From: Acidobacteriaceae bacterium
GTDB lineage: Bacteria > Acidobacteriota > Terriglobia > Terriglobales > Acidobacteriaceae
Length of the DNA stretch: 64,000 nt
Direction: 5' to 3'
NCBI GenBank assembly: GCA_030041435.1
Contig: JASHNW010000040.1
Location: 1-64,000, forward strand
Shown: piece by piece, positions 1 to 37,490 of the stretch
Numbering within the stretch: position 1 is the stretch's first letter
How the letters are laid out: every line of letters begins with the position of its first letter
Translations under genes and position numbers: made by a program
Notes under the pieces: generated by a model
Seen by the model: only the letters and a program-made list of their open reading frames with translations
Database searches by the model: none
What the model was told of the DNA's origin: nothing

Positions 1-1
1 G

Positions 2-253
2 ACGTGGGAGAAGGGGCTGGTGCGACCGCGGGTGGCGCTGCTGGACTCGAAGATGGGCAAGCTGCAGGACATGCCGAAGTGGCGGTATCCGGCGCCGGAG
101 CCGGGTCCGGTGGCGGCGAAGCCGGCGGTGGGCGAGGAATTCGAACGCGGGATGGCGGCGGCGGAGGCGCGGCTGCGGCAGATGGATGCGGAGAGGAACG
201 AGGCGGCGGAGAGCGGCGAGCTGGCGGTGGCGCGGGCTTGCGGGGAGGGGTAG
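2..253 (+). CDS. 3' end of an unrecognised protein (5' truncated by window edge)
   Basis: An open frame enters from the left edge and ends at a TAG at 251-253. The 83 visible residues have the high GC3 of the host genes and are rich in Ala, Glu and Arg, with a charged, probably helical C-terminal part (residues about 45-75). I do not recognise the family. The stop codon sits inside the GGGTAG motif that recurs just beyond the far end of the neighbouring mobile cassette, so the cassette inserted at, or just after, this gene's end and left it apparently intact. Confidence 0.5.
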   Translation, partial: TWEKGLVRPRVALLDSKMGKLQDMPKWRYPAPEPGPVAAKPAVGEEFERGMAAAEARLRQMDAERNEAAESGELAVARACGEG

Positions 254-264
254 TGGGTAGTGTC

Positions 265-1224
265 CTAAGTTGCCTTCTCTTCTGCCTGTTTTACTTCGTA
301 TTCGCTGATTCCTCCGGTATTCCACCACATGCCTTGCGTAATCAACTCCACGGAGGTCTTGGGGCTAGCGTTCGGATGGAGCATGTCGGTCAGAGAAGTA
401 GGGGTTTTAGTGTAGTAAAAATTGAGGCGCATAGTCTTTCCGGGAAATTCGTATTCAACAAATCCGAAAAGACGGATCACCAATTGGTCCTCCTCCAGGT
501 TTTGAGCCAGTGTGCTCAAGGTATCGGGGTACCCGTCCATCCTTGGCCAACTGTAGATGTAGGCTGGCGTCGGTTCGGAACTTGGGTCGATGAAACTGTC
601 TGGCAGGTTGAGACTCATAACCTCTTCAATTTTAGGAGGAGGAGTCGATGGCGGGACTACGCTTATTCTCCCTCCGCATCTCTTGATGAAAGCGCGGGAC
701 GATCCTATATTCCTGAGTTTTACAGAACCTACCAAGTTCCAAAAATCGCTGTCTGGAGAACCAATATCGATTTCTCCGGGTTGGATTTCGATCCTCGCTC
801 GCTCTCTATCGATCATGACTCGCATTTGTTCTCGCGCAAGCTCGCTAGCCACTTTCATTTCTCCGAGTTGTCCTTCCATGAGGCCAACCTGCCCGAGCGC
901 GGCTTCAGCGGCTCGCTTAGTTTGGCTAGTCTGTTCGGCAATCACCATGAGGGTGAGCAATATCGCCCAAGTGGTTATTCCACCGGGCCACGAGAAAACT
1001 CGATACCAACGTGGCAGATGCCGCTCGGCGTCCTTCTCGCATTCGTCGCAGTTTTCAGCATGAGCCGATGGGGTAACCATCCTGCCGTTGAACTGGGTGC
1101 ATTCCTTCTCGCATTGCTTGCTGGCGTTCTGATACTGACGGGATACGTAGGCGGACCCCAGGAGGATCAACAACACAACGGCGGGATATTTCCAGCGTAT
1201 CAATACAGCCAGTCTCTTCAGCAT
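265..1224 (-). CDS. Membrane-anchored coiled-coil hypothetical protein (cassette passenger)
   Basis: A 319-residue protein with a transmembrane segment near residues 12-28, a Cys-containing loop (five Cys between about 38 and 62) and a second hydrophobic segment near 78-95. A charged stretch at about 97-145 looks like a coiled coil, followed by a beta-rich soluble C-terminal domain. Such two-helix anchored proteins of unknown function are common in bacterial accessory DNA. It is divergent from the next membrane-protein gene, with 65 bp between the starts. Its codon use is less GC-rich than that of the flanking host genes. Function unknown. Confidence 0.6.
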   Translation of the reverse strand: MLKRLAVLIRWKYPAVVLLILLGSAYVSRQYQNASKQCEKECTQFNGRMVTPSAHAENCDECEKDAERHLPRWYRVFSWPGGITTWAILLTLMVIAEQTSQTKRAAEAALGQVGLMEGQLGEMKVASELAREQMRVMIDRERARIEIQPGEIDIGSPDSDFWNLVGSVKLRNIGSSRAFIKRCGGRISVVPPSTPPPKIEEVMSLNLPDSFIDPSSEPTPAYIYSWPRMDGYPDTLSTLAQNLEEDQLVIRLFGFVEYEFPGKTMRLNFYYTKTPTSLTDMLHPNASPKTSVELITQGMWWNTGGISEYEVKQAEEKAT

Positions 1225-1289
1225 GATGGCGAAAATGTATCACAGAAATATGAAAACATGGCAGCATCTCCACAAGGAGGTTTAGCGCT

Positions 1290-2003
1290 ATGTTCAGACG
1301 TTGGGCCGAAGGAACTCTCCAATCCATCCTTGGTGCCGTCATCCTCGCACTCATTCCGGGGGTGGCTGTGACCTATCTGGCGCATGTTCAATCAGTCTGG
1401 ACCAAACCGCTGCTGCTCGGTCTGACGGCGTTCGCCTTGGCCGCTTTCATCGTATTGGCTATTGATGCAATCCGAAGGCTTCCGCCGCGCCGCGTCATAC
1501 CGAATGTCAAAAACATTGAAATATGCGTTCGGGATTGGCTGAATAATTTTCAGTATGCGGTGAAAAAATCCCCTGTGGAGACAGCCTATTTTCGCTACCT
1601 CGTTACTGTGGACAGCGGGACGAAGATGTTTATCGGACGCCCAAAGGGAGATTTTCAGGATTACGTGCTCATTCGATCCGATCTAATTCCGGGGCCCCAG
1701 GACTTGGAGCACATAGCCACTCTCACGACACTGCAAACCGCCGTAATTGTGGGAAACATCAGATTGGAACTCGCCCGTCATCACGTTGGGTATTTGAATA
1801 TCTCGATTCCAATCAAGGATGCCCACATTTTCAAGCGAATCCCGATTAGGGAAACGCTTACGGAACATGACTTCGTCGCCGCCATCGAAGAAGTGGAAGC
1901 TGCTGCGCATAGCGTCGCGTTCGTCTTTGCCCTAGAAATGGTCCAGGCTGGAAAACTTATCGATCCGCAGCGGGATCAGAGGGCGCTTGACTTCGGTGGA
2001 TAA
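1290..2003 (+). CDS. Two-helix membrane protein of unknown function (cassette passenger)
   Basis: 237 residues. Two hydrophobic segments at about 12-32 and 40-62 form an N-terminal hairpin, followed by a soluble alpha/beta domain of about 170 residues that probably faces the cytoplasm. A good ribosome site (AAGGAGG, about 1273-1279) precedes the ATG. The gene ends 30 bp before the transposase start, so the two are probably co-transcribed. No catalytic motif was recognised. The topology resembles that of the divergent neighbour, which may mean the two act together, but that is only inferred from layout. Confidence 0.6.
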   Translation: MFRRWAEGTLQSILGAVILALIPGVAVTYLAHVQSVWTKPLLLGLTAFALAAFIVLAIDAIRRLPPRRVIPNVKNIEICVRDWLNNFQYAVKKSPVETAYFRYLVTVDSGTKMFIGRPKGDFQDYVLIRSDLIPGPQDLEHIATLTTLQTAVIVGNIRLELARHHVGYLNISIPIKDAHIFKRIPIRETLTEHDFVAAIEEVEAAAHSVAFVFALEMVQAGKLIDPQRDQRALDFGG

Positions 2004-2033
2004 TTGTATTACAGTTATTGTACTGAGGCTTTT

Positions 2034-2855
2034 ATGGCGAGCGTCCTGAACAAAGACAAGCAGATCGCGGTAATCGCGGCACTGGCTGAGGGGTCCAGCA
2101 TCCGGTCTATTGGGCGCATGACAGGCATCCATCGGGATACGATCATGCGGCTCGGGGTTCGCGTGGGGCAGGGCTGCACGGCCCTGATGGACGGCACGAT
2201 GCGCGATTTGCCCTGCGAACGGCTGGAGCTAGATGAGATTTGGGGCTACATCGGCAAGAAGGATGCGAACGTCCGGCCCGGCGACGATCCGCAATTCGGC
2301 AACGTCTGGACGTGGTGTGCGATTGACTCGGACACCAAGCTGGTTCCCGCGTTCAAAGTAGGGGATCGCACCCCAAAGTCCGCCATTGATTTCGTGGACG
2401 ATCTGGCCCTGCGGATGCGGAACCGGGTGCAAATCTCCACCGATGGTCTGCGGGCCTACGTGGACGCCATTGACCAGGCTTTCGGGGTCAACGTGGACTA
2501 CGGCCAGATTGTGAAGGTCTACGGAAGCCAGTTGACCGATCAACGGCGGTACAGCCCTCCCGAAGTCATTTCGAGCGAGAAGAAGGTCATTTGCGGCAAT
2601 CCCAACATGGACCTGATTTCGACCAGCTATGTCGAGCGTCTGAACGCGACCACGCGGCTGCACGTGCGGCGGCTCACCCGGCTTACCCACGCCTTCAGCA
2701 AGAAGCGCGAGAACTTCGAGGCGGCGGTAGGGCTGCATTTCGCCTATTACAATTTCTGCCGCCGTCACAATACCCTCCGCTGCACCCCGGCAATGGCGGC
2801 TGGCGTCACGCAGGATTTCTGGAGCGTGGGAGATTTGGTGGAGGCGGCGGTATGA
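2034..2855 (+). CDS. IS1-like family DDE transposase
   Basis: 273 residues from the ATG that follows TGAGG. An N-terminal helix-turn-helix (residues about 8-45) precedes a DDE catalytic domain. Candidate catalytic residues are D67 in LELDEIWGYIG, D137 in STDGLRAY and E201 in SYVERLN, followed by the YYNFCRRH region typical of these transposases. It is one uninterrupted frame, unlike classical IS1, which needs a -1 frameshift to make its transposase. It should mobilise the element bounded by the repeats at 257 and 3898. Longer upstream starts (2004) exist but lack a ribosome site. Confidence 0.85.
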   Translation: MASVLNKDKQIAVIAALAEGSSIRSIGRMTGIHRDTIMRLGVRVGQGCTALMDGTMRDLPCERLELDEIWGYIGKKDANVRPGDDPQFGNVWTWCAIDSDTKLVPAFKVGDRTPKSAIDFVDDLALRMRNRVQISTDGLRAYVDAIDQAFGVNVDYGQIVKVYGSQLTDQRRYSPPEVISSEKKVICGNPNMDLISTSYVERLNATTRLHVRRLTRLTHAFSKKRENFEAAVGLHFAYYNFCRRHNTLRCTPAMAAGVTQDFWSVGDLVEAAV

Positions 2856-2914
2856 ATCTCCGGGTGGCGTTTGAAGTATCTGCTACATATGGAACAGGTG
2901 AGGGAGGCTTGTGT

Positions 2915-3376
2915 ATGGCATTGGATTGGGGACAAAAGGCCGCAGAGCGGTTACGCAGCAGAACGATCAACAAAAAGCGTGATGACGACATTCTGTCGGA
3001 GAAGAGAAGGCTTCTTCAAGAGCAGAGTCCGGCGTTATGGATAGCTTTGTGCGAGCGCGTTAAGAAATCCGCCATCTCTCTCAACGAAAACTATCGCATG
3101 GTTATCATGCGAGTTAAGGATGTCGTTGCAAATCGCTTGGAAGTCCGATTTGAATTTGAGGGTCGCGTCACCGATCTCACAGCAGAGTTCTCTGCAACAA
3201 CATCCCCAGATGCTCTGAAGTGGCGTTACAGCGGTGATGTAGGAGCCCACGTAACAGATGGTAGTTGCGCTCTCTTCGTAAAACCAGATGGGAAAGTTGT
3301 CTTTCAGCAGACTTTGATCGCACGGGCACCGGAGAGTTTGGCGGATGAAATGCTCGATGGTCTTCTCGCGGAATAG
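2915..3376 (+). CDS. Hypothetical soluble protein (cassette passenger)
   Basis: 153 residues. The ATG at 2915 is chosen because AGGGAGG (2901-2907) sits 7 bp before it; an ATG at 2852, overlapping the transposase stop, would add 21 residues. The N-terminal 40 residues are strongly charged (KKRDDDILSEKRR) and probably helical; the rest alternates short strands. No domain was recognised. It follows the transposase in the same orientation and belongs to the same cassette transcript. Confidence 0.55.
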   Translation: MALDWGQKAAERLRSRTINKKRDDDILSEKRRLLQEQSPALWIALCERVKKSAISLNENYRMVIMRVKDVVANRLEVRFEFEGRVTDLTAEFSATTSPDALKWRYSGDVGAHVTDGSCALFVKPDGKVVFQQTLIARAPESLADEMLDGLLAE

Positions 3377-3380
3377 ACCC

Positions 3381-3695
3381 ATGAGAACCAGAGAAATCGT
3401 TGAGTTGTGCGATGTGATCTACAAACTCCACGGAGCGAGAGCGAGGCACATTCACAGCGTGCCTGTGTGCGAGGAGTTCCAGGGGCGAGTTGTCTGGGAT
3501 GGAATCGTCGAAGTCTTCGGCCTGAGCGGACATCCCAAGGCGAACAGGATTTACGCCTGGGCGCATGAGACGGGCGACCCATCGAATCCGATGCGATATG
3601 TGACCGTCTTGCACATCCCGCCCGTAGTCTCGCCCCAAACTGCGGTTCAGGCCGCAATCCTTCAGGAGTATAAGAGCCGTGCCAAGAGCAATTGA
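3381..3695 (+). CDS. Hypothetical protein, possible partner of the downstream RHH protein
   Basis: 104 residues beginning MRTREIVEL, starting 4 bp after the preceding stop. It is a compact alpha/beta protein with a conserved-looking core (WDGIVEVFGLSGHPKANRIY). I do not recognise the family. Its 3' end overlaps the next, ribbon-helix-helix-like gene by 17 bp, an arrangement often seen in toxin-antitoxin pairs. The order (candidate toxin first) and the lack of a known toxin motif make that only a guess. Confidence 0.5.
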   Translation: MRTREIVELCDVIYKLHGARARHIHSVPVCEEFQGRVVWDGIVEVFGLSGHPKANRIYAWAHETGDPSNPMRYVTVLHIPPVVSPQTAVQAAILQEYKSRAKSN

Positions 3696-3870
3696 GAAGA
3701 AGCGGAAACCGGGAAGGCCGAAGCTGCCCAAAGGCGCAGCCAAGGGGAGCATCGTGCCGGTACGATTCAGCCCGGAGGATCGTAAGCGGGTGGAGGGAGC
3801 GGCGAAGGCCAGTGGCCAAACCGTCTCCGAATGGGTCCGCAGCACGTTGTCTGCTGCAATCGGAGACTGA
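3679..3870 (+). CDS. Small ribbon-helix-helix-like DNA-binding protein
   Basis: 63 residues starting at GTG 3679. A basic, AT-hook-like N-terminus (KKRKPGRPKLPKG) is followed by a strand-helix-helix pattern (IVPVRFSPEDRKRVEGAAKA then GQTVSEWVRSTL), as in Arc/MetJ-type antitoxins and plasmid regulators. It probably binds DNA as a dimer and may regulate the cassette. It is translationally coupled by overlap with the gene before it and is the last gene before the right inverted repeat at 3887. Confidence 0.6.
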   Translation: MPRAIEKKRKPGRPKLPKGAAKGSIVPVRFSPEDRKRVEGAAKASGQTVSEWVRSTLSAAIGD

Positions 3871-4028
3871 GCCTGTGGATTTCAAATTAGGACACTACTG
3901 GGTAGGTGAGGGGTGGGGGCGAGGGCGAGGCTGAAGGTTGTTTTGTAGGGGTAGGGGCGGTTGGCGGGGCTTAATTCCTTTTTTCCGGCCGGCTACTCTC
4001 AATGATCGCATTGGCCTGAATGCGTCAA

Positions 4029-4811
4029 TCAGGTTCGACGGTCTGTTGAACCCCGCCTCGCAAGAACGATCGGCTGATAATAGCCGCTGTCGCCTGGCAG
4101 CAGCCACTGCACGTCTCTAAAGCCAGCAGCCTCCAGCTCATCGCATAGTTCGCTGCGCAAGATGCAGCGGTATTCAGAGGCGAAGTGATGTGCCGTCCAC
4201 GCCCGAGTCGATTGCAGCGTGATGTAAAGGTGAACGACATATCTTCTCTCATCGATCCAGTCCCAGACCTGATGAACGATGCGCCGAGTGCCCGAATCCC
4301 CGTAGAACGCGGGCTGTTGCATTGCCGGCCTTTGCTTCAGAACCTCGTCATAATCCCGTATACTCGCGATGAACAAGGCATTGGGTGCGAGTTTCGAGGC
4401 AATGGTCGTGAGTGCGCTCCGAACCTGAGCCTCGCAAAGGTGCGGCAGAGCGTTGTCCAGCACGGCGATCACATCGAAATCGGTTCCAGGAATTTCCGAC
4501 ATCGACGTCATGTCTGACACGGCGAATGTAATATCCAGACCGCGAACTCCAGCCTCGTGTCTGGCACGCGTCACGGCTGCTGCGCTCAGATCCGAAGCAG
4601 TGACCATGTGGCCAGACTTTGCGAATCCCAAAGCCTGGGTTCCGATACCACAGGCGGGATCCAGAATCCTGAGGCGCTGATTCGCGAACTGCTCCGCCAA
4701 GAGCTTATTGAGCACCTTCGCCTGGCGGTCAATTGCTCGGTCCCAGTCCTCGAAGATCAGGTGATAGTGGGCGGCAAGTGGTTCATAGAATCCAAGAACT
4801 GAATGGTCCAG
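4029..4811 (-). CDS. Class I SAM-dependent methyltransferase with a non-canonical start
   Basis: The Rossmann-type methyltransferase core is clear: motif I ILDPACGIGTQALGFA, acidic motif II ASDLS, and the DVIAVLDNALPHL stretch. The first ATG/GTG/TTG in frame is GTG at 4715, giving 228 residues. The frame upstream of it still encodes family-typical sequence (GFYEPLAAHYHLIFEDWDRAI, four residues short of the motif I region), and a perfect AGGAGG lies at 4821-4816. I therefore extend to CTG at 4811 (260 aa); ATT at 4814 is another possibility. The substrate is unknown; relatives include glycine/sarcosine-type and small-molecule methyltransferases. Confidence 0.7.
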   Translation of the reverse strand: MDHSVLGFYEPLAAHYHLIFEDWDRAIDRQAKVLNKLLAEQFANQRLRILDPACGIGTQALGFAKSGHMVTASDLSAAAVTRARHEAGVRGLDITFAVSDMTSMSEIPGTDFDVIAVLDNALPHLCEAQVRSALTTIASKLAPNALFIASIRDYDEVLKQRPAMQQPAFYGDSGTRRIVHQVWDWIDERRYVVHLYITLQSTRAWTAHHFASEYRCILRSELCDELEAAGFRDVQWLLPGDSGYYQPIVLARRGSTDRRT

Positions 4812-4815
4812 AATG

Positions 4816-4821
4816 CCTCCT
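4816..4821 (-). promoter_or_regulatory. Shine-Dalgarno AGGAGG without a standard start codon after it
   Basis: AGGAGG on the reverse strand is followed after 4 nt by CTG in the methyltransferase frame, and no ATG, GTG or TTG lies in frame until 4715. Either CTG/ATT is used or the start codon has mutated. Confidence 0.5.
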
Positions 4822-4900
4822 TTTACCTTCGTACAAAGGAGCTGATCGATCTGGTCATCATTCTATCGCGCGTAATGGTTCACTTATCTGAGCGGAACCC

Positions 4901-5212
4901 TAGAGGCTGTTATTAACTTTCCCACGACCGGCGCTGGGAGCCCATTTTTCTCAGTTCGAGGAGCGAGGAGCGACAGATACCGGGTGTATCTTAGCGACGA
5001 GCGACGACGAAATGAGGAAAATGGGCCCCAGCCCCCTGGGTTGCGGGGAAAATGGGCCATACTTCATTCTCGCCCTCGACAGTGGACCCGCCACAGCCTT
5101 CGGGCTCGGCTTCGTCTGGCCCGATTTTCGTCCGCAGTGGGGTCCCCGGTACGCCAGTTTTTGGCGCACTGGGGCAGAACGCCGGCCGCGCGAAAGTTAA
5201 TAACAGCCTCTA
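4901..5212. mobile_element. MITE-like element, long copy (312 bp)
   Basis: It begins TAGAGGCTGTTATTAACTTT and ends with the exact reverse complement (5192-5212), a perfect 21-bp terminal inverted repeat. The outermost TA on both sides fits a TA target duplication, as made by IS630/Tc1-type transposases. No convincing ORF is inside. A second, shorter copy with the same ends and much of the same interior lies at 10024-10237, so the element is non-autonomous and dispersed. Confidence 0.8.
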
Positions 5213-5518
5213 AGGACACTCAAGCACTGCAAGTGCCAGTTGATGCTAAATCGCCGAGTCGCGCATTGGCGGCGGATTTGCATCGGCAAGTCGATTTGTA
5301 TTCACGGGCGGACTTTTGGGTAAGTCTTCGGATGACGTCCGAGGGGGCTGTCGCCTGATGTTGTGGAGCGATGGCCGGCAGACGGGAAACTGAGCCGTCA
5401 CCCACCCGGGCGTGCGGCGGGCTCCCACCCTGTCGCTCGAAAAGCCGAGCGACAAGGGTGGGGCACCCGGATTTGTTCCGGAAGTTCAGGATTCGCGCGC
5501 GACGACGATCCGGACTTC
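5213..5518. other. Intergenic stretch with a long hairpin
   Basis: About 300 bp without a supported gene. It contains a strong inverted repeat, CCCACCCTGTCGCTCG at 5424-5439 against CGAGCGACAAGGGTGGG at 5446-5462 (one bulged A, 6-nt loop). It lies downstream of the reverse-strand AHSA1 gene, so it could terminate or stabilise that transcript; it has no T-run and could equally be a dispersed palindrome. Confidence 0.5.
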
Positions 5519-6034
5519 TTATTTCGCCTGCGCCAGCCCCGCGATCACCGCAGCAAGTTTATCGAGTATCTGGTTCCAGCCCTCCATTTGACCGCTGTTT
5601 TTCGCGCTCTCCATGGGCTCGTTTCCAATGAAGGTAAGTTTCGTCCGGCCGTTTCCGAGATCCTCAAAGATGGTCACGTCGTACGCACCGTCGATCGCCT
5701 CGTGTTCGATTCCTAATTGCTCAGGCTCGATCTTGTTTCCCTTCGAGTCGGCAAAGTACATCAGGGAGACGATCTTCTCGTACGGAACAATCTCGTGGTA
5801 TTCCACCGCATTCCAGAACTCCTGCCCATCCGGCGCTCTCATGCAGCAGAGGAGTCTTCCTCCCACGCGAAAATCCATCTCGCAAACGGGCGCAGTAAAG
5901 CCCTTCGGTCCCCACCACTGCATCACGTACTTCGGGTCTGTCCACGCCTTCCAGACCAGTTCGCGTGGGGCATCGAAAACCCGCGTCACAACCATCCGCT
6001 CAGTCTCATTCACCGTGCTGTTTGCCATGTCCAT
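5519..6034 (-). CDS. SRPBCC/AHSA1-family protein
   Basis: 171 residues covering one complete AHSA1 (activator of Hsp90 ATPase homology 1-like) domain. Family hallmarks are visible: the VTRVFDAPRELVWKAWTDP start, WWGPKGFT, and the C-terminal WNQILDKLAAVI helix that closes the hydrophobic cavity. Such proteins bind small hydrophobic ligands; the ligand is unknown. Its start overlaps the end of the upstream ArsR-type gene by 29 bp, so it is translated from the same message and presumably repressed by that regulator. Confidence 0.85.
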   Translation of the reverse strand: MDMANSTVNETERMVVTRVFDAPRELVWKAWTDPKYVMQWWGPKGFTAPVCEMDFRVGGRLLCCMRAPDGQEFWNAVEYHEIVPYEKIVSLMYFADSKGNKIEPEQLGIEHEAIDGAYDVTIFEDLGNGRTKLTFIGNEPMESAKNSGQMEGWNQILDKLAAVIAGLAQAK

Positions 6035-6362
6035 CCTCCGTTTTTTTCATTTGAGTTACAACTGCATCCAGTTTGTCGAAACTCTCTTCCCAGAATTGCC
6101 GATAACTCATCGCCCAGTCGCTGACGGCCTTGATGGCCTGTGGCCTGAGCGTGCAGATACTCTCTCGTCCACGCTTCTTCCTGATCACGATCCGCGCCCG
6201 CACCAGGCAGGCGATATGTTTTGAGATCATTTGCTGCGAGAGCGCAAACGGCTCCGTCAGTCCATGCACTGCAGCAGGCCCGCGGGCGAGGCGCCGGACG
6301 ATCGCCCGGCGGGTCGGATCGGACAAAGCCGCAAATGTTGCACCCAGTCTATCCACAACCAC
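6006..6362 (-). CDS. ArsR/SmtB-family winged-helix regulator
   Basis: 118 residues with the ArsR signature TFAALSDPTRRAIVRRLARG, then a helix-turn-helix (LSQQMISKHIACLVRARIV) and a wing (KKRGRESICTL). There is no obvious Cys metal site. ArsR genes coupled to AHSA1 genes form a common bacterial pair in which the regulator represses its own operon. Start is GTG at 6362; GTG at 6356 is possible. Hardly any leader separates the promoter-like elements from the start, so translation may be nearly leaderless. Confidence 0.85.
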   Translation of the reverse strand: MVVDRLGATFAALSDPTRRAIVRRLARGPAAVHGLTEPFALSQQMISKHIACLVRARIVIRKKRGRESICTLRPQAIKAVSDWAMSYRQFWEESFDKLDAVVTQMKKTEDGHGKQHGE

Positions 6363-6391
6363 ATGGTTGTGTATTTTCCCCGGAATGTCAA
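6354..6391 (-). promoter_or_regulatory. Promoter -35 and palindromic operator for the arsR-AHSA1 pair
   Basis: Read on the reverse strand, TTGACA lies at 6391-6386. A perfect 8-bp-arm palindrome (CACAACCA, 2-bp centre, TGGTTGTG, 6354-6371) covers the expected -10 region and the start codon. The position is ideal for ArsR-type autorepression. The -10 box itself is weak. Confidence 0.55.
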
Positions 6392-6600
6392 CTGGAATTT
6401 TCGCGAATCCCGATTTTTCTTTCCCGATTCATGAACCTGAGGATGAGAGTGGGCGCCACCATGTGCGCAGCAGCGCGAGCCGCCACGGTTGCGTCGCTGC
6501 GATCAGCAGCCGGAGCCAATGAGCTGCCGAAGCGAGGCCAGGATGGTGCGGAACGAGTGTCGATCCTGCCGGCAATGCACTATCCACTGCCCCGGGTCTG
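6363..6600. other. Intergenic region upstream of arsR
   Basis: Apart from the arsR promoter elements at its left end and the palindromic element that follows on its right, I see no gene or motif here; ORFs across it have no codon bias or ribosome site. Confidence 0.4.
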
Positions 6601-6734
6601 TGACCGCATGAAGTTTTCCGGGCCTGAAGGCCGGGGAGTTTGCGACCGCCCGTTCCCCGGCCTGAAGGCCGGGGCTTCTACCGCAGTGCCGCGGGCGGCA
6701 CGCGCTTCGCGCCAGGCCCCGGATCATGCGGTCA
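6601..6734. repeat. 134-bp palindromic dispersed element, copy 1
   Basis: It opens with TGACCGCATGA and closes with the exact reverse complement TCATGCGGTCA (6724-6734). Inside are nested hairpins (GGGCCTGAAGGCC and CCCCGGCCTGAAGGCCGGGG, and GTGCCGCGGGCGGCAC). An almost identical copy of the same length is at 26337-26470. It is non-coding. It lies between the arsR promoter and the 3' end of a methyltransferase gene. Confidence 0.75.
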
Positions 6735-7328
6735 GGGGCCCAGAGGCCGTTTGCGCGCCAGGCAGAACCACGCTTTCGCACCGTGACGGTGGAACTCAGC
6801 GCTGCGCAGTTCGACAATTTCGAGGGCTGGTTCGATGGACTGAACGACCTCCCGCGCCGAGCGTCGCGGCGGACCAACCTCTCGTGGCGGACCTTCTGCC
6901 GAGCCGATGAGGCTCAGCCACAGGCCTTCCGGCGCGAGCGCGGTCGCGACCTGGGCGGCAAAACGCGCTCTCTCCCCGGGTTCATCGAAGACATGGAAGC
7001 AGCCACGGTCAAAAACGAACTGAAACGGTCCCCCGCTCGGGGAGGTGGCCAAAAAGTCGACGGTGGCGAAACGGCAACCGAGGCCGCGGCCCTCCAGCCT
7101 GGCGCTGGCTCGTTCGACCGCAAGCGGGGCCACATCGATGCCGAGTACGTCGAAGCCGCGCTCGGCCAGCCAGAGGGAATTCGTTCCAGTACCCGCGCCG
7201 ACCTCGAGCGTCCGGGTGGGCTGAATGCGACCCGAAGCGATGAATTCGACGAGCAGCGGATCCGGCTCGCCGGTATCCCAGGGAAGCTCTCCCGCTGCGT
7301 AGCTGTCATTCCAGGAGGGATGCGACAT
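6732..7328 (-). CDS. Class I SAM-dependent methyltransferase (TehB/TPMT-like)
   Basis: 198 residues. It begins with WNDSYAAGELPWDTGEPDPLL, a segment typical of thiopurine-methyltransferase-like and TehB-like enzymes. Motif I is TLEVGAGTGTNSLWLAERG, then an acidic residue in GIDVAPLAV, and FDRGCFHVFDEPGER in the acceptor region. It probably methylates a small, perhaps chalcogen-containing, molecule; the substrate cannot be read from sequence. The last 3 bp touch the end of the adjoining palindromic element, so the repeat supplies DNA right at the stop. Confidence 0.75.
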   Translation of the reverse strand: MSHPSWNDSYAAGELPWDTGEPDPLLVEFIASGRIQPTRTLEVGAGTGTNSLWLAERGFDVLGIDVAPLAVERASARLEGRGLGCRFATVDFLATSPSGGPFQFVFDRGCFHVFDEPGERARFAAQVATALAPEGLWLSLIGSAEGPPREVGPPRRSAREVVQSIEPALEIVELRSAEFHRHGAKAWFCLARKRPLGP

Positions 7329-7473
7329 TACTCCACGAGTGTAGCGCTACAAAACCTTCGGGGATCGCGGCCGGGGAAAGTTGGGGCAGCCGCGATGGAT
7401 TTGAAATTTGGCCGTCGGTTGATTGGCTGCACCCGGCGAATATCCGGTCGGACACGGTATTCGTAGAAGCGAT

Positions 7474-7743
7474 CTAAGCGCCGAAGCGGACGGCGGCGCG
7501 GGCTTTGGCTTTGGCGGCTTCTTCGTCGCGGTTCTTCGGCGGGGCGGCGGTGGCGAGCGATTGCAGCAGGCGCGTGGAGCTGGCGGCGACTTCTTCGACG
7601 GCGGCGAGGAACGCGGCTTCGTTGGCCTGGGAGGGTTTGGTGAAGCCGCTGATCTTGCGCACGAACTGCAGCGAGGCGGCGCGAATTTCGTCGTCCGTCA
7701 CCGGGGGATCGAAGTTGAAAAGGGTTTTGATGTTTCTGCACAT
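7474..7743 (-). CDS. DUF2277 domain protein
   Basis: 89 residues beginning MCRNIKTLFNFDPPVTDDEI, the conserved DUF2277 opening, with the conserved QFVRKISGFTKPSQANEAAF core. It is a small, all-helical conserved protein of unknown function found singly in many Proteobacteria, Actinobacteria and Acidobacteria. It is monocistronic here. Confidence 0.85.
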   Translation of the reverse strand: MCRNIKTLFNFDPPVTDDEIRAASLQFVRKISGFTKPSQANEAAFLAAVEEVAASSTRLLQSLATAAPPKNRDEEAAKAKARAAVRFGA

Positions 7744-7811
7744 GGTGTGCGACCTCGCAGGCTCGGTCGTTGCGATCGTTTTCGCCTGGTTTGGGCAATA
7801 CCAGCATAGCT

Positions 7812-7909
7812 CAGAGCGCAGAGCTCAGAGCTCAGAGCGCAGGGCTCAAAGTACAGAGCGCAGGGCACAGAGCGCAGGGCACAGAGCACAGGGCACAGGG
7901 CGCAGGGCG
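7812..7909. repeat. Heptanucleotide tandem array, left (14 units)
   Basis: Fourteen consecutive 7-bp units of the form CAG(A/G)GC(T/A/G) run in perfect 7-bp register, with one decayed unit (CAAAGTA). Because 7 is not a multiple of 3, all frames stay open through it. It ends 70 bp before the start of the DnaC-like gene; a matching array follows that gene at 8751-8902. Confidence 0.9.
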
Positions 7910-7979
7910 CCCGCGTCTCGCTTCCCCACACTGGCGGCGTCTTTTCCACGGCGGCGAAGCTGCGATACTGGGGTTTCCG

Positions 7980-8744
7980 ATGAGTGCGATTTGTCCCATG
8001 TGCGGCGGGATGGGAGTGCGGGAGGTGGTGCGCCCGGGCGGCGTGCGTTCCGTCGAGGCGTGCGCGTGCCAGGCGGAGCAGCGCGCGGCGCGGCTGCTGC
8101 GGCGGGCGGGGATTCCGGCGCGGTACGAGCACTGCTCGCTGGACAGCTACCATACCGGTTTCGAAAAGGCGGACCCTTCTCTTGAAGCTGCTCTGTTCCA
8201 TGCCCGATGTTTTGTGGAAGGCTACCCGGTCACGACGGGCGGGCGCGGGCTGCTGCTGACCGGGTCGGTCGGGGTGGGCAAGACGCATCTGGCGGTGGGC
8301 ATTCTGCATGCGCTCATCGTGGAGAAGGGCGTGGAGGGACTGTTCTGCGATTATCGCGAGCTGCTGAAGCAGATCCAGCACTCGTGGAATCCGCAGGTGG
8401 CGACGACGGAGATGGAGATTCTGCGGCCGGTGTTCGACGCCGAGGTGCTGGTGCTGGACGAGCTGGGCGCGGCGCGGCCGACGGACTGGGTGTGGGACAT
8501 GGTGGCGCTGGTGCTGAACACGCGCTACAACGACAAGCGCACCACGCTGATCACGACGAACTATGCGGACGCGCCTCCGGCGGGCAACGGCAACGGAAAT
8601 GCGGCGGGGCGCGCGGCGCGCGAGGAGACGCTGGGGGACCGGATCGGCGAGCGGATGCGCTCGCGGCTGGCGGAGATGTGCGTGGTGGTGGAGATGCGCG
8701 GCGAGGATTTCCGGCGGACGGTGGGGCGGGCGCGGTTCGGGTGA
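7980..8744 (+). CDS. DnaC-like helicase-loader ATPase with N-terminal zinc-finger-like motif
   Basis: 254 residues from ATG 7980, a start preferred because the frame upstream is only tandem-repeat DNA. Cys5, Cys8, Cys28 and Cys30 may form a metal site. An AAA+ core follows: Walker A GSVGVGKT (95-102), Walker B VLVLDE (156-161), sensor TTN (192-194) and a GERMRSRL arginine-finger region near the C-terminus. Relatives (DnaC, DnaI, IstB) load replicative helicase or help transposases; no istA neighbour is present, so a replication or repair loader is likelier. It is flanked on both sides by heptamer arrays. Confidence 0.8.
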   Translation: MSAICPMCGGMGVREVVRPGGVRSVEACACQAEQRAARLLRRAGIPARYEHCSLDSYHTGFEKADPSLEAALFHARCFVEGYPVTTGGRGLLLTGSVGVGKTHLAVGILHALIVEKGVEGLFCDYRELLKQIQHSWNPQVATTEMEILRPVFDAEVLVLDELGAARPTDWVWDMVALVLNTRYNDKRTTLITTNYADAPPAGNGNGNAAGRAAREETLGDRIGERMRSRLAEMCVVVEMRGEDFRRTVGRARFG

Positions 8745-8750
8745 CGGTTA

Positions 8751-8902
8751 GGGCACAGAGCTCAGGGCACAGAGCACAGAGCTCAGGGCACAGAGCACAG
8801 AGCTCAGGGGTCAGGGGTCAGAGCACAGAGCACAGAGCTCAGAGCTCAGAGCACAGAGCTCAGGGGTCAGAGCACAGAGCTCAGAGCACAGAGCTCAGGG
8901 CG
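8751..8902. repeat. Heptanucleotide tandem array, right (21 units)
   Basis: A partial unit at 8751-8755 is followed by 21 units of CAGAGCT, CAGAGCA, CAGGGCA or CAGGGGT (8756-8902) in unbroken 7-bp phase. It starts 7 bp after the stop codon of the DnaC-like gene. The unit type is the same as in the left array, but the variant order differs, pointing to independent slippage or unequal exchange. Confidence 0.9.
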
Positions 8903-8942
8903 TTCGGGATGACAACGGCCAGGAGAGTTCGGCGGCACCGCG

Positions 8943-9980
8943 CTAGCTGCGGCGTTTGAGCCTGGAGGCGGTTGCGACGTTGTCGCGGGTGGTGCCTTTC
9001 ACGGAGTACATGGCGGCATCGGCTTTGCGGATGAGCTCGTTGACGTCGGCGGAGTCTGAGGGCCAGGCGGCGACGCCGTAGCTGGCGCGGATGGAGACTT
9101 CCCTGCCCTCGGCGGCGAGGAAGGTGCGCCGGCGCAGGGTCTTGTGGAGATAGCGCGCCATGCGCTCGGCTTCTTCAGGGCCGGCGCCGTGCAGGAGCAC
9201 GATGAATTCGTCGCCGCCGTAGCGAAAGACGGAGTCGCCGGAGCGGACGAGGGAGCGGACGGCCTGGCCGAATTCGGCGAGCACGCGGCTGCCGGCGAGG
9301 TGGCCATGCTCGTCGTTGACGCGCTTGAAGCGATCGAGGTCGATAAAGACGAGGCTGAATGCGCCGCCGGCGGCGCCGGCCTGCTCGCTCTCGGTCCTGA
9401 GCACGCGGTATAACTGGCGCTGGTTATAGAGGCCGGTGCAGTCGTCGGTGACGGTGAGCTCCTGAATGCGCTCGACGGCGCGCGCATTCTCGATGGCGAT
9501 GGCGCCGTAGTCGCAGAGCAGGTGGAGAAAGGAGATGGTGTCGTCGGCGAGGTTCTCCACCTGGCAGTTGAAGAGCTGGATGACGCCGAGGGTGCGGTGG
9601 CGGGAGCGCAGGGGCATGCAGATGGCGGAGCGGATGCGGAAGCGGCGCTCGCTTTTGAGGCGGGGATCGTCCTGGGCCTCGGGGATGATGAGGGTTTCGC
9701 CGTGCTGGGCGACCCAGCCGGCGAGGCCTTCGCCCATTTTCACGCGGACTTCGCGCAGGCCGGCTTCGGAGTGGCCGACGATGACGGCGTAGAAGAGCTC
9801 CTGGCGGGCTTCGTCGACGATGAGCAGGGACCACTGCTCGGGGCGGAAGAACTGTTCCATCTGGCGCATAATGGCGCGGAGAACGGAATCGAGGTCGAGC
9901 TCTGAGGTGAGGGCGCGCGCCACATTGTGCAAGACGAGGAGATCGTTCTGACTGGGGCCGGGCGCGGGCGGTGGATTCAT
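8943..9980 (-). CDS. GAF-GGDEF diguanylate cyclase
   Basis: 345 residues. A GAF sensor domain (about 12-168) precedes a GGDEF domain (about 178-338). The catalytic motif GGDEF is intact at 255-259, and an inhibitory-site RxxD (RSGD, 246-249) sits exactly five residues before it, so the enzyme should make c-di-GMP from two GTP and be product-inhibited. No transmembrane segment or receiver is present, so the signal is probably a cytoplasmic small ligand bound by GAF. It stands alone, between a heptamer array and a MITE. Confidence 0.92.
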   Translation of the reverse strand: MNPPPAPGPSQNDLLVLHNVARALTSELDLDSVLRAIMRQMEQFFRPEQWSLLIVDEARQELFYAVIVGHSEAGLREVRVKMGEGLAGWVAQHGETLIIPEAQDDPRLKSERRFRIRSAICMPLRSRHRTLGVIQLFNCQVENLADDTISFLHLLCDYGAIAIENARAVERIQELTVTDDCTGLYNQRQLYRVLRTESEQAGAAGGAFSLVFIDLDRFKRVNDEHGHLAGSRVLAEFGQAVRSLVRSGDSVFRYGGDEFIVLLHGAGPEEAERMARYLHKTLRRRTFLAAEGREVSIRASYGVAAWPSDSADVNELIRKADAAMYSVKGTTRDNVATASRLKRRS

Positions 9981-10023
9981 CGCGTTGAAGATATTTTAAC
10001 CTTAGTCCGCGGAGATATTCACT

Positions 10024-10237
10024 TAGAGGCTGTTATTAACTTTCGCGCGGATGGCGCTGCGAGCCCATTTTTCGCAGTTCGAGGAGCGAGGAGCGGCAGA
10101 TACCGGGTGTATCTCAGCGACGAGCGACGACGAAATGGGGAAAATTGGCCCCAGCCCGCAGGCTTCCACCGCAGCGCGCCAGCTTTTGGCGCACTGGGGC
10201 AGAACGCCGGCCGCGGGAAAGTTAATAACAGGCTCCA
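10024..10237. mobile_element. MITE-like element, short copy (about 214 bp)
   Basis: Its left end is identical to that of the element at 4901, its right end (GAAAGTTAATAACAGGCTCCA, given here as ending at 10237) differs at a few positions. Outer and inner portions match the long copy; the middle about 100 bp are missing, so this is an internal deletion derivative. The left flank keeps the TA; the right has decayed to CA. The next repeat family begins 2 bp further on. Confidence 0.75.
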
Positions 10238-10239
10238 GC

Positions 10240-10405
10240 GTCCCGAGTCTGAAGTTCCTTTCGCTGATCGACGCATCGAAGTGGGTCGAAGAAGACCCCT
10301 CAGGGGCTAAAGCCCAACGTATTTTCGGCCGCTTACGGCACGACAGAAGTCGTGCCCTGATACAAAGACGAAGACAATTCCTTGACGAAATTAATGACTC
10401 AGGAC
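10240..10405. repeat. Dispersed palindromic element, family A (full copy)
   Basis: It starts GTCCCGAGTC and ends GACTCAGGAC, an imperfect terminal inverted repeat. Inside are the hairpin-forming GGGGCTAAAGCCC and GGCACGACAGAAGTCGTGCC and the constant tail CTGATACAAA. Other copies or parts lie near 14767, 14975, 20348, 20738, 26084, 37010, 48271, 51111, 51283 and 53256, always between genes. Confidence 0.75.
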
Positions 10406-10586
10406 GCTGGCTGTTACTTAGGGGTTTGCCGGATTCGCTGCGCTATCTCAGGCGGGGACGGAGGAGCGGAAGACAACGGGGGCGGGATGCCAGGAGAATC
10501 GGGAACAGGCGCGAAACTGAGATGATCGTTTCGGCGCGGCGCGCATCTGTTTTAACAGGGGCAGGAGCCTGGAAAGCGAGGAGCCG
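10406..10586. other. Upstream region of the NDH-2 gene
   Basis: No gene is seen. A GAGGAG ribosome site lies just before the ATG at 10587. No clear promoter hexamers were found. Confidence 0.35.
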
Positions 10587-11927
10587 ATGGCGACAGACAG
10601 ACTGCATCGCAGGCCTCGGGTGCTGATTATCGGGGGCGGCTTTGCCGGCACGCATGCGGCGAAGGCGCTGGCGAAGCTGCCGGTGGACGTGACGATCGTG
10701 GATCGGCGCAATCACTTCACGTTTCAGCCGCTGCTGTATCAGGTGGGGCTGGCAGTGCTGTCGCCGGGAGATATCGCGTCGCCGATCCGGACGATGGTGC
10801 GGCACAACGCGCATACCGAAGTGCTGATGGACGAGGCGGTGGGCTTCGACCTGGAGCGGCGGCGGGTGCGCTTCGCGAGCGGCGCGGAGATAGGGTACGA
10901 CTACCTGATGCTGGCCACGGGCGCGACGCATTCGTATTTTGGGCACGACGAATGGGAGCCGCTGGCGCCGGGGCTGAAGACGATCGAGGACGCGATCGAG
11001 ATCCGGCGGCGGGTGCTGCTGGCCTTTGAGCTGGCGGAGCGGGAGATGCTGGAGACGGGGACGCATCATCCGCTGAACTTTGTGGTGATCGGCGGGGGCC
11101 CTACGGGGGTGGAGCTGGCGGGGGCGATCTGCGACATCGCGCGGCGGTACATGCGGCGGGATTTTCGGCACATCAATCCGGCGGAGGCGCGGGTGCTGCT
11201 GATCGAGGGCAGCGCGCGAGTGCTGGGGGCATATCCGGCGGACTTATCGAAGAAAGCCGAAGAGCAGCTGACGCGGCTGGGCGTCGAGGTACACACGAAC
11301 AAACAGGTGACCGAGCTGGGGCCGGGCTACGTGATGGCGGGCGATCTGCGCATCGAGGCGGCGGTAACGCTGTGGGCTGCGGGGGTGCAGGCTTCGCCGC
11401 TGGGGAAGATGCTGGGCGTCGAGACGGACAAGCGCGGGTGCGTGCTGGTGAACGGCACGCTCAATCCGGAGGGGCACGGAGAGATTTTCGTTTGCGGCGA
11501 CCTGGCGCACTTCGAGCAGGAGGGCCGCCAGGTGCCGGGGGTGGCGCAGCCGGCGATGCAGATGGGCGACCACGTGGCGAGGATGATCGCGGCCGACCTG
11601 AGCCACGAGCCGCGGCGGCCGTTTCACTATTTCGACAAAGGGGACATGGCGACGATTGGGCGGCAGGCTGCGGTGGCGAAGGTGGAGTGGCCGTTCAGGG
11701 CGCACTGGAGCGGGTTTCCGGCGTGGGTAACGTGGCTGACGGTGCACATCTATTTTCTGATTGGATTTCGCAACCGGCTGGCGGTGCTGTCGCAGTGGGT
11801 GTGGGCGTACTTTATGTACACCAGCGGCGTGCGGCTGATCTACGGCAGCCAGAAACTGCCGGGGTGGCCGACGCAGGATGGGGTGGACGAACGGGAGGCA
11901 GTGAAACCGGGCGCGGCGGCGGATTGA
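10587..11927 (+). CDS. ndh: Type II NADH:quinone oxidoreductase (NDH-2)
   Basis: 446 residues, the usual NDH-2 length. The N-terminal FAD dinucleotide fold is VLIIGGGFAGTHAAKAL, followed by the family segment NHFTFQPLLYQVGLAVLSPGDIASPIR; a second, NADH-binding fold is VVIGGGPTGVELAGAI. The FAD-contacting motif is EIFVCGDLA, then the quinone-site region GVAQPAMQMGDHVA. A C-terminal hydrophobic stretch (about 385-425) anchors it to the inner membrane. It passes electrons from NADH to quinone without pumping protons and keeps NAD turnover going alongside complex I. It is monocistronic. Confidence 0.92.
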   Translation: MATDRLHRRPRVLIIGGGFAGTHAAKALAKLPVDVTIVDRRNHFTFQPLLYQVGLAVLSPGDIASPIRTMVRHNAHTEVLMDEAVGFDLERRRVRFASGAEIGYDYLMLATGATHSYFGHDEWEPLAPGLKTIEDAIEIRRRVLLAFELAEREMLETGTHHPLNFVVIGGGPTGVELAGAICDIARRYMRRDFRHINPAEARVLLIEGSARVLGAYPADLSKKAEEQLTRLGVEVHTNKQVTELGPGYVMAGDLRIEAAVTLWAAGVQASPLGKMLGVETDKRGCVLVNGTLNPEGHGEIFVCGDLAHFEQEGRQVPGVAQPAMQMGDHVARMIAADLSHEPRRPFHYFDKGDMATIGRQAAVAKVEWPFRAHWSGFPAWVTWLTVHIYFLIGFRNRLAVLSQWVWAYFMYTSGVRLIYGSQKLPGWPTQDGVDEREAVKPGAAAD

Positions 11928-12097
11928 GGGGGTCGCCGCGATGCGAATCGAGTTTGTCGGCAGGCTGTGAGGTTGTGGGCTTCTGCAACGGGCTGTCGCG
12001 CTGGCGCGCGATTTCACCCACCCCAACGCCAGTGTGAGGCACCCGGCAGGGGCTACCCTGCTCCCGCCGGTTCGTTTGCCGTGAGCGATCCATCATA

Positions 12098-37138: not shown

Positions 37139-37243
37139 AGGAGTTGATGTTTCAAATCGGTTCTGCGTGGGGTACTTCGGGCGGAATCCAGGGAAGAAGT
37201 GGTTTGACCCTCCGGCGCGAAAAGAGTTCGCTTCTTGCTGTGG

Positions 37244-37490
37244 GGTGAACCTGGCTGTCGCGCCGCGCGGTCCTTTCCCCGCGCATCGATGGCCGGGGAG
37301 AGCGCGGTGTGGGGCTGGGGGCGAGGGTGAACCTGGCCGCCGCGCTTCACTGTCCGTTCCCCGCGCATCGATGGCCGGGGAGAGCGCGGTGTGGGGCTGG
37401 GCGCGAGGGTGAACCTGGCTGTCGCGCCGCGCGGCCCTTCCCCCCGCGCATCGATGGCCGGGGAGAGCCCGGTGTAGGGCTGGGCGCGAG
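37244..37490. repeat. Three tandem 82-bp units
   Basis: Units begin at 37244, 37326 and 37408, each opening GGTGAACCTGGC and containing CGCATCGATGGCCGGGGAGA and GTGTGGGGCTGGG (37408 unit: GTGTAGGGCTGGG). Lengths are 82, 82 and 83 bp. No protein family is recognisable in any frame. Confidence 0.88.

Follow-up and report, generated by a model that had tools for sequence, protein, structure and literature searches.

A predicted transporter insertion sequence of the IS1 family in an Acidobacteriaceae genome and its relatives with differing passenger genes

The window analysed here, a stretch of 64,000 bp from an Acidobacteriaceae bacterium (assembly GCA_030041435.1, contig JASHNW010000040.1), contains near its beginning a block of six genes that had been proposed to be an IS1-like element with an unrecognised passenger set. 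Comparison with related loci indicates, with a probability of about 88%, that window positions 256-3899 (3,644 bp in the register of the relatives) are one insertion of a cargo-carrying lineage of transporter insertion sequences (tISs) in the IS1 family, transposition itself being predicted. As judged from the available loci, the lineage is seen mostly in Acidobacteria, and its members carry differing passenger sets. In the proposed mechanism, a single-frame DDE transposase would recognise ends starting with GGTAGTG, insert the whole segment between them and generate a target duplication of 8 bp (sometimes 9 bp). The genome that holds the window comprises 5.77 Mb in 134 contigs, and base 1 of the window is base 1 of contig C105; loci, genomes and contigs are given below by their L, G and C numbers.

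The left terminal inverted repeat lies at 256-278 on the plus strand with the core GGTAGTGTCCTAA at 256-268, a 13-mer that also ends other elements, and the right one at 3877-3899 on the minus strand with the core AGTAGTGTCCTAA (the reverse complement) at 3887-3899 and its outermost G changed. The exact 12-bp inverted repeats that the original prediction had placed around the block were found at 257-268 and 3887-3898, and the open reading frames (ORFs) between them are laid out as it gave them. Its suggestion that GGGTAG outside both ends marks a target duplication also proved sound: both copies are present (248-253 and 3900-3905), and in the register of the relatives they belong to a decayed 8-bp duplication, GGGTAGTG at 248-255 and GGGTAGGT at 3900-3907, in which six of eight bases agree. 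The chance of such agreement is about 0.4% with equal base use and higher in the G-rich context here. The proposed difference in composition was seen as well, the G+C content being 0.542 inside the element and 0.595 outside. By itself the pair of ends is unremarkable, since the inverted-repeat listing that scores it as 16 nt at 94% holds 86 inverted pairs in the same 6-kb stretch; what makes it decisive is that related transposases elsewhere are bracketed by ends of this type. The window copy is old or damaged, and because the outermost right base is changed and the duplication has decayed, it may no longer move.

Relatives of the transposase occur at four places in the own genome, namely C105 itself, C78 (85%), C106 (49%) and a fragment on C7. 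The 12-mer end (at most one mismatch) was found 10 times in this genome, including beside all four places; a reversed control pattern gave 16 matches, so that the positions of the 12-mer are informative and its count is not. The C106 copy is a complete element of 2,681 bp whose duplication matches at 8 of 8 positions. A transposase scan of genome contigs yielded 79 loci, mostly labelled Acidobacteria. In these loci the 11-mer TAGTGTCCTAA, with one mismatch allowed, forms 13 facing pairs around a transposase match; 12 of the pairs have an exact direct repeat of at least 8 bp immediately outside and one, L072, has none.

A de novo search for an end repeat accompanied by an exact 8- or 9-bp duplication was carried out on 82 transposase loci, the window included. 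The loose criterion (at least 11/16) was passed by 45 of the 82 loci and by 23 of 82 chimeric controls, and is therefore worthless. A strict filter (GG at both ends, at least 12/16) kept 32 loci and none of the best hits of the 82 chimeric controls; the control chimera L017/L022 had paired the real ends of two elements through an A- and G-rich duplication common to both, in a shifted register. Other loci were dropped, many of them cut by contig ends or holding partial transposases, and L049 and L083 had candidates below the filter. Element loci include bins labelled Smithellaceae (L028), Gaiellaceae (L032), Akkermansiaceae (L040) and Hydrogenedentota (L054).

Selection by ends alone led to the same picture. 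The exact 13-mer GGTAGTGTCCTAA is present in 78 of 200 family genomes, and 21 facing pairs were formed among the matches listed, six of them already known from the other searches (G012:C11, G114:C68, G134:C199, G000:C66 and, as judged by contig and element lengths being equal, L144, the same as L024, and L150, the same as L020). Exact duplications flank 14 of the 21 pairs, and 19 reach at least 75%. Eight pairs enclose more than 2 kb, all with a transposase, eight enclose 157-1,516 bp and five 26-36 bp. Terminal repeats lying tight around the transposase alone (2004-2855), a finding that the original prediction had named as speaking against itself, were sought in the relatives and none were seen; the ends of the closest relatives lie far outside the transposase gene, at positions corresponding to the outer repeats of the window and with 8- or 9-bp duplications. 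By this comparison, the window ends are genuine element ends, and the predicted IS1-like element with passengers inside them is upheld.

A set of 37 complete elements was assembled from the 32 de novo elements, the window, which was added by hand, and six elements chosen by ends alone, minus the relics L066 and L079. They measure 2,097-4,889 bp (median 3,331) with GGTAGTG-type ends, and no two of them have 800 bp in common at more than 90%. The transposase of the window (2034-2855, plus strand) is a single-frame IS1-type DDE protein of 273 amino acids (aa), whose D67, D137 and E201 do not vary among the 36 aligned sequences; the ATG at 2034 is favoured as its start over the TTG at 2004 because the relatives begin there. 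It matches DDE_Tnp_IS1 (PF03400) at 31.7 bits (cut-off 24.1) and NF033558 at 58.8 bits, which is under the cut-off of 100. Three of four plasmid relatives are annotated "IS1 family transposase", and no IS1595-type transposase domain was found at an E value up to 0.1 in Pfam or NCBIfam.

Classical IS1, of about 0.8 kb, has InsA and InsB frames joined by a frameshift, and single-frame IS1 members exist. Two overlapping frames with a programmed frameshift are not what the lineage has: a single transposase frame of more than 240 aa is found in 36 of the 37 elements, window included, and is split in L061. The single frame therefore separates the lineage from classical IS1, not from the IS1 family. 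The signature of that family comprises ends of the form GGnnnTG and duplications of 8-9 bp. Among the 74 ends of the 37 elements, which had in part been selected for GG at both ends, position 1 is G in 73, position 2 G in 74, position 6 T in 73 and position 7 G in 74. Duplications are exact in 35 of the 37 elements (31 of 8 bp, 4 of 9 bp), 30 of the 36 elements other than the window having been selected for exact duplication and six by ends alone. By its predicted transposase, ends and duplication, the lineage falls in the IS1 family.

At least two ORFs besides the transposase were called in all 37 elements with a simple gene caller, and no cargo-free copy was found among them. Downstream of the transposase, the window has two small genes, E and F, which recur together with it. 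The transposases of L017 and L019 are 87.5% identical, and the similarity of the two elements at the DNA level is confined to a stretch that starts about 65 bp upstream of the transposase and runs through E and F as far as the right end; their left 1.0-1.2 kb or so give no match at an E value of 1e-3. L021 and L023 (88.6%) have only the transposase stretch in common. The border of similarity between the window and C78 (85%), and between the window and L015 (77%), likewise lies about 33-35 bp upstream of the transposase. Other pairs have more in common, such as the left-end gene in L153/L155 and L023/L026. These comparisons show that the conserved block of the window's subgroup is the transposase, E, F and the right end, and that the cargo differs between relatives, with sharp borders, mainly from the left end to about 30-65 bp upstream of the transposase. 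The window's own cargo is the genes A, B and D. The original prediction had named as support the recurrence of its gene set, within identical ends, at unconnected loci; the full set of five was not found again, and only parts recur (the E/F core, and A and D, not B). By this comparison the window block consists of a core and of cargo that has been swapped, and does not amount to a fixed module.

Gene E (3345-3695, plus strand, start probably 3381) and gene F (3679-3870, plus strand) are core genes of the subgroup. E occurs in 8 of the 37 complete elements and F in 6, with both together in six, and in all six the two lie inside the ends. This last observation bears on a simpler explanation, in which a short IS1-like element (the transposase alone or with E/F) would sit beside unrelated host genes and the outer repeats would be chance or foreign. 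A 16-nt inverted pair at 94% is indeed not rare in 6 kb, and the window duplication is imperfect; on the other side stand the ends of the closest relatives at matching outer positions with 8- or 9-bp duplications, and the absence of any element shorter than 2,097 bp among the 37. The comparison largely refutes this explanation, which we regard as hardly credible beside that of a single cargo-carrying insertion.

The structure model of E has an alpha-beta4-alpha arrangement with a predicted local distance difference test score (pLDDT) of 82. Fold searches with it gave no identification (Foldseek at best an E value of 0.32; VIA-align at best a Z of 7.0, against a designed protein over 66 residues at 3.0 Å), and E has no Pfam or NCBIfam match at 0.1 and no PDB sequence match at 1. 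F encodes a 63-aa ribbon-helix-helix (RHH) protein that matches the NikA-like family PF21983 at 29.4 bits (cut-off 27). A 96-aa left-end protein (fam0) is found in 15 of the 37 elements in place of the E/F core. Considering the RHH match and position, a DNA-binding role as a small regulator or helper of transposition is probable for F, or for the 96-aa protein of the other main subgroup. Reading of the sequences also showed a motif resembling GGKARA..LTPERR in small basic proteins, or in N-termini, near the left end of L022, L041, L054, L057 and L149; perhaps these correspond to F and the 96-aa protein.

E was found in 5 of the 150 family genomes searched. Copies with a transposase and ends hold it on C105 and C78 of the own genome, in G008 and at G134:C199, and a copy with ends and without a transposase at G114:C68. 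In G137 it adjoins a transposase fragment without recognised ends, and at G134:C29 a broken E lies next to F, where a transposase is missing and the single end is degenerate. The original prediction had also suggested that the RHH gene and the gene before it might behave as toxin and antitoxin. That E and F form a toxin-antitoxin pair maintaining the element would agree with their small size, their adjacency and overlap, the weak matches of the RHH protein F to RelB, TacA and HicB (under their cut-offs) and the joint presence of the two in six of 37 complete elements. The partners of a type II toxin-antitoxin system are expected together; L040 and L157 have E and no F, L137 has F and no E, and E yields neither a family or PDB match nor a clear fold match. 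A toxin-antitoxin role is thus not favoured, and we consider it quite improbable.

Gene A (265-1224, minus strand), whose 3' end abuts the left end, is a recurrent cargo gene for a membrane-anchored protein of 319 aa without a Pfam match. In its model, of middling confidence, a helix is followed by a second, long helix and a beta-sandwich (pLDDT 70, predicted template modelling score 0.50). Fold searches of A yield no identification from this model: the best Foldseek hit was to a Kir channel (E value 1e-3, low template modelling scores), and the best VIA-align Z was 7.4 over 108 residues at 3.9 Å, with many unrelated beta-sandwiches tied. Besides the window, ten relatives of A were found in the fetched loci. 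In L015, L129 and L137 the A gene is enclosed by two ends of the lineage, and L176 has an end on one side of it; in L134 and L130 the neighbouring end-like matches are degenerate and may be chance, and no clear end was seen at L131, L132, L133 and L177. The likeliest reading of A is a sensor or effector anchored in the membrane.

Gene B (1290-2003, plus strand) is cargo that was seen in an element only here. It encodes 237 aa with a hydrophobic N-terminus and a DUF2299 domain (PF10061, 23.1 bits, cut-off 22.8); its hydrophobic stretches were read from the sequence by eye. The divergent pair of membrane proteins of the original prediction accordingly fits A and B, with helices modelled in the former and hydrophobic stretches read in the latter. 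B has two weak, distant relatives besides the window, both without recognised ends, and one PDB sequence match at an E value of 0.98. The recurrent gene D (2852-3376, plus strand; 174 aa, or 153 from 2915) lies between the transposase and E, and where D is missing, E begins at the transposase stop. It has eight ORF matches including the window, one of them in the C7 remnant of the own genome about 50 bp from an end. Within the genome samples searched, A, B, D and E were found in none of four congeners.

The cargo of other members is better recognised. Of 50 proteins from the cargo or core of other elements that were run singly against Pfam, 24 have no family at 1e-3. Matches above cut-off comprise SocA_Panacea in L043, L153 and L155, an IrrE-like peptidase in L032, L037, L041 and L155, Abi_2 in L061 (8e-55), an N6_N4 methylase with an Mrr domain in L022, HNH in L028 and L035, a nucleotidyltransferase in L032, P63C in L054 and L149, Bro-N in L057, a Clp protease in L020, a proteasome-like protein in L143, DUF1643 in L035, DUF2513 in L026 and an aspartyl protease in L037. 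In addition, a set of 61 cargo or core proteins, five of them from the window and 30 of the 61 also run singly, was compared with PADLOC. At least 10 of the 61, in nine elements (L022 twice, L032, L035, L037, L041, L057, L061, L153 and L155), match below 1e-20, with the models AbiD, RmrA/RmrT, PD-Lambda-2_B, methyltransferase, HNH and PDC-S13. Flanking controls (nearest neighbours of at least 100 aa) gave 0 of 55, the best control being 1.7e-17 (one-sided Fisher p 0.0011, proteins treated as independent). A matched no PADLOC family at 1e-5; that scan also covered B and D, and 25 of its 82 matched families are itemised, without separate rows for B or D. A RES/Xre toxin-antitoxin pair by the transposase on an Acidiphilium plasmid lies outside the element ends and was not counted as cargo.

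The lineage cargo thus seems enriched in defence-type families. The earlier suggestion of a defence or maintenance module is borne out in part, by matches to such families elsewhere in the lineage; for the window's own A, B and D no such match stands among the families itemised. Cargo of anti-phage, restriction or toxin-antitoxin type in several members may pay for its carriage. Conceivably the two membrane proteins A and B, with or without D, make up a single undescribed module for anti-phage defence or abortive infection: A recurs as cargo, in transposase-less copies too, in a lineage whose enrichment in defence-type cargo rests on hand-picked proteins and a post hoc threshold. B was found, however, in no genome with A except the own one in the 150-genome samples and in none of the ten other A loci, and A lacks a PADLOC match at 1e-5, so that we consider such a module unlikely.

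Copies without a transposase and copies reduced to their ends suggest internal loss in the lineage. L137 (1,500 bp, duplication 8/9) and L129 (1,516 bp, 7/8) contain A-like genes with F or parts of E/F and no transposase, and could move only in trans. A transposase-less copy of 459 bp (L156, 402-860) with an exact 8-bp duplication surrounds a glyoxalase/bleomycin-resistance-type gene. A scar pattern of two facing ends 0-14 bp apart was searched in 397 genomes of the order, and end-only palindromes of 26-39 bp were found at 18 places in 16 of the 397, nearly all of the same family, with none for the reversed control; scars shorter than 26 bp would escape this pattern. Duplications at 75% or more flank 15 of the 18 (8 bp, one of 9 bp; the best of three lengths was taken), and shifted flanks reach at most 5/8. 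One palindrome lies in the own genome at C66:47621-47654 (L097, L169). Four places have an identical 26-mer, which would be expected from deletion between AATT repeats near both ends. The palindromes may be loss scars or end-only insertions.

At the site of L020 (G139), seven of eight congeners have both flanks about 40 to about 415 bp apart with no element and the eighth has one side only, a comparison made imprecise by the fact that about 0.94 kb beside L020 is also missing from these relatives. The left flank of L157 was found in none of 11 other genomes. Plasmid copies with 8-bp duplications were found in Hoeflea (4,224 bp), Mesorhizobium (3,370 bp) and Acidiphilium (2,634 bp), and plasmids could carry the lineage between cells; the ends of a Methylocapsa plasmid relative did not resolve. 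A transposase relative (33%) without an annotated gene was also seen in the 321-kb genome of Brevundimonas phage vB_BpoS-Gurke (L188, 4001-4870), with a possible end at 6139 and no pair resolved.

Several observations weigh against reading the window block as an insertion of such a lineage, or against what is read into its cargo. The window duplication matches at six of eight positions and is not exact. No empty site was found for the window copy: its right flank (3908-4800) gave short partial matches in two of 11 other genus genomes, and its left flank amounts to 255 bp, the contig beginning at window base 1. L142 and L145, two of the 21 pairs with exact ends, are without a duplication, and 30 of the 37 complete elements had been chosen for having an exact one. 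Close to where A starts, the window and C78 share 44 bp at 91%, so that the left cargo of this pair is not wholly unrelated, and the L020 comparison is imprecise as described. The PADLOC cargo was picked by eye with larger genes taken, the 1e-20 threshold was set after the results, and at 1e-5 at least 12 of the 61 cargo proteins match, against 14 families matched by one member each (1-14 proteins) in the controls. A PADLOC match is not a function, and A, B, D and E are without a functional match.

Other repeats were noticed in the window. Miniature inverted-repeat elements with the ends GAGGCTGTTATTAACTTTC lie at 4903-5210 and 10026-10235; such end sites (at most one mismatch) occur 49 times in the own genome, mostly as facing pairs about 50-350 bp apart, with none for a reversed control. 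Heptanucleotide arrays of GCAGAGC and CAGAGCT (about 15 and 20 copies) at 7804-7910 and 8756-8898 lie near both ends of a gene for a DnaC-like ATPase, named by reading only. An 82-bp tandem unit is present in three copies with 87% matches at 37243-37490. An Rfam scan of window 1-12000 gave nothing at the gathering threshold.

ISs are usually seen as selfish and gene-poor; here all 37 elements carry more than 1 kb of further genes, which differ between close relatives. We tentatively propose that this IS1-family lineage is an obligate carrier of exchangeable cargo that spreads anti-phage and toxin-antitoxin genes among soil bacteria, a proposal on which we would sooner bet against than for. If it is true, the unmatched cargo (A, D and the small left-end proteins) would point the way to defence or addiction genes not yet described, A being a candidate membrane effector. 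Since the ends are well defined, cargo could be extracted from many genomes, and location inside the ends would be a direct search for defence or addiction genes, comparable to the cargo of Tn7-like transposons. The end-only palindromes would offer a countable record of element loss.

Compared with known systems, the lineage resembles classical IS1 in a DDE_Tnp_IS1 match above cut-off, GGnnnTG ends and 8-9-bp duplications, and differs in having one frame and 2.1-4.9 kb with passengers instead of about 0.8 kb. The single-frame IS1 subgroup of ISfinder (ISMhu11) includes members up to several kb, and part of the lineage may already be catalogued there. That the whole lineage is, with only its cargo new, falls a little short of an even chance in our judgement: the size range of that subgroup and the agreement of ends and duplication with the IS1 signature favour it, and the name ISMhu11 had no match in the open-licence papers searched, which weighs little. 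Among the matches listed, a search of open-licence papers returned nothing on passenger genes in such IS1-family elements. Nearly precise excision of Tn10 is a deletion that leaves two ends and the duplication; the palindromes found here likewise retain only ends and duplication, and differ in being natural and 26-39 bp long. Tn7-like transposons carry varied cargo including defence genes, according to an excerpt of PMC8649781, and are similar in that respect. The present lineage is far smaller, with one transposase gene and no TnsABC-type genes seen. Transporter ISs have been described mainly from the IS1595 family. Unlike them, the present lineage has an IS1-type transposase, and no cargo-free copy was found among its 37 complete elements. 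A tIS is an IS carrying passenger genes, as defined in an excerpt of PMC9330008, and the lineage agrees with this definition in combining an IS-type transposase and ends with unrelated passengers inside.

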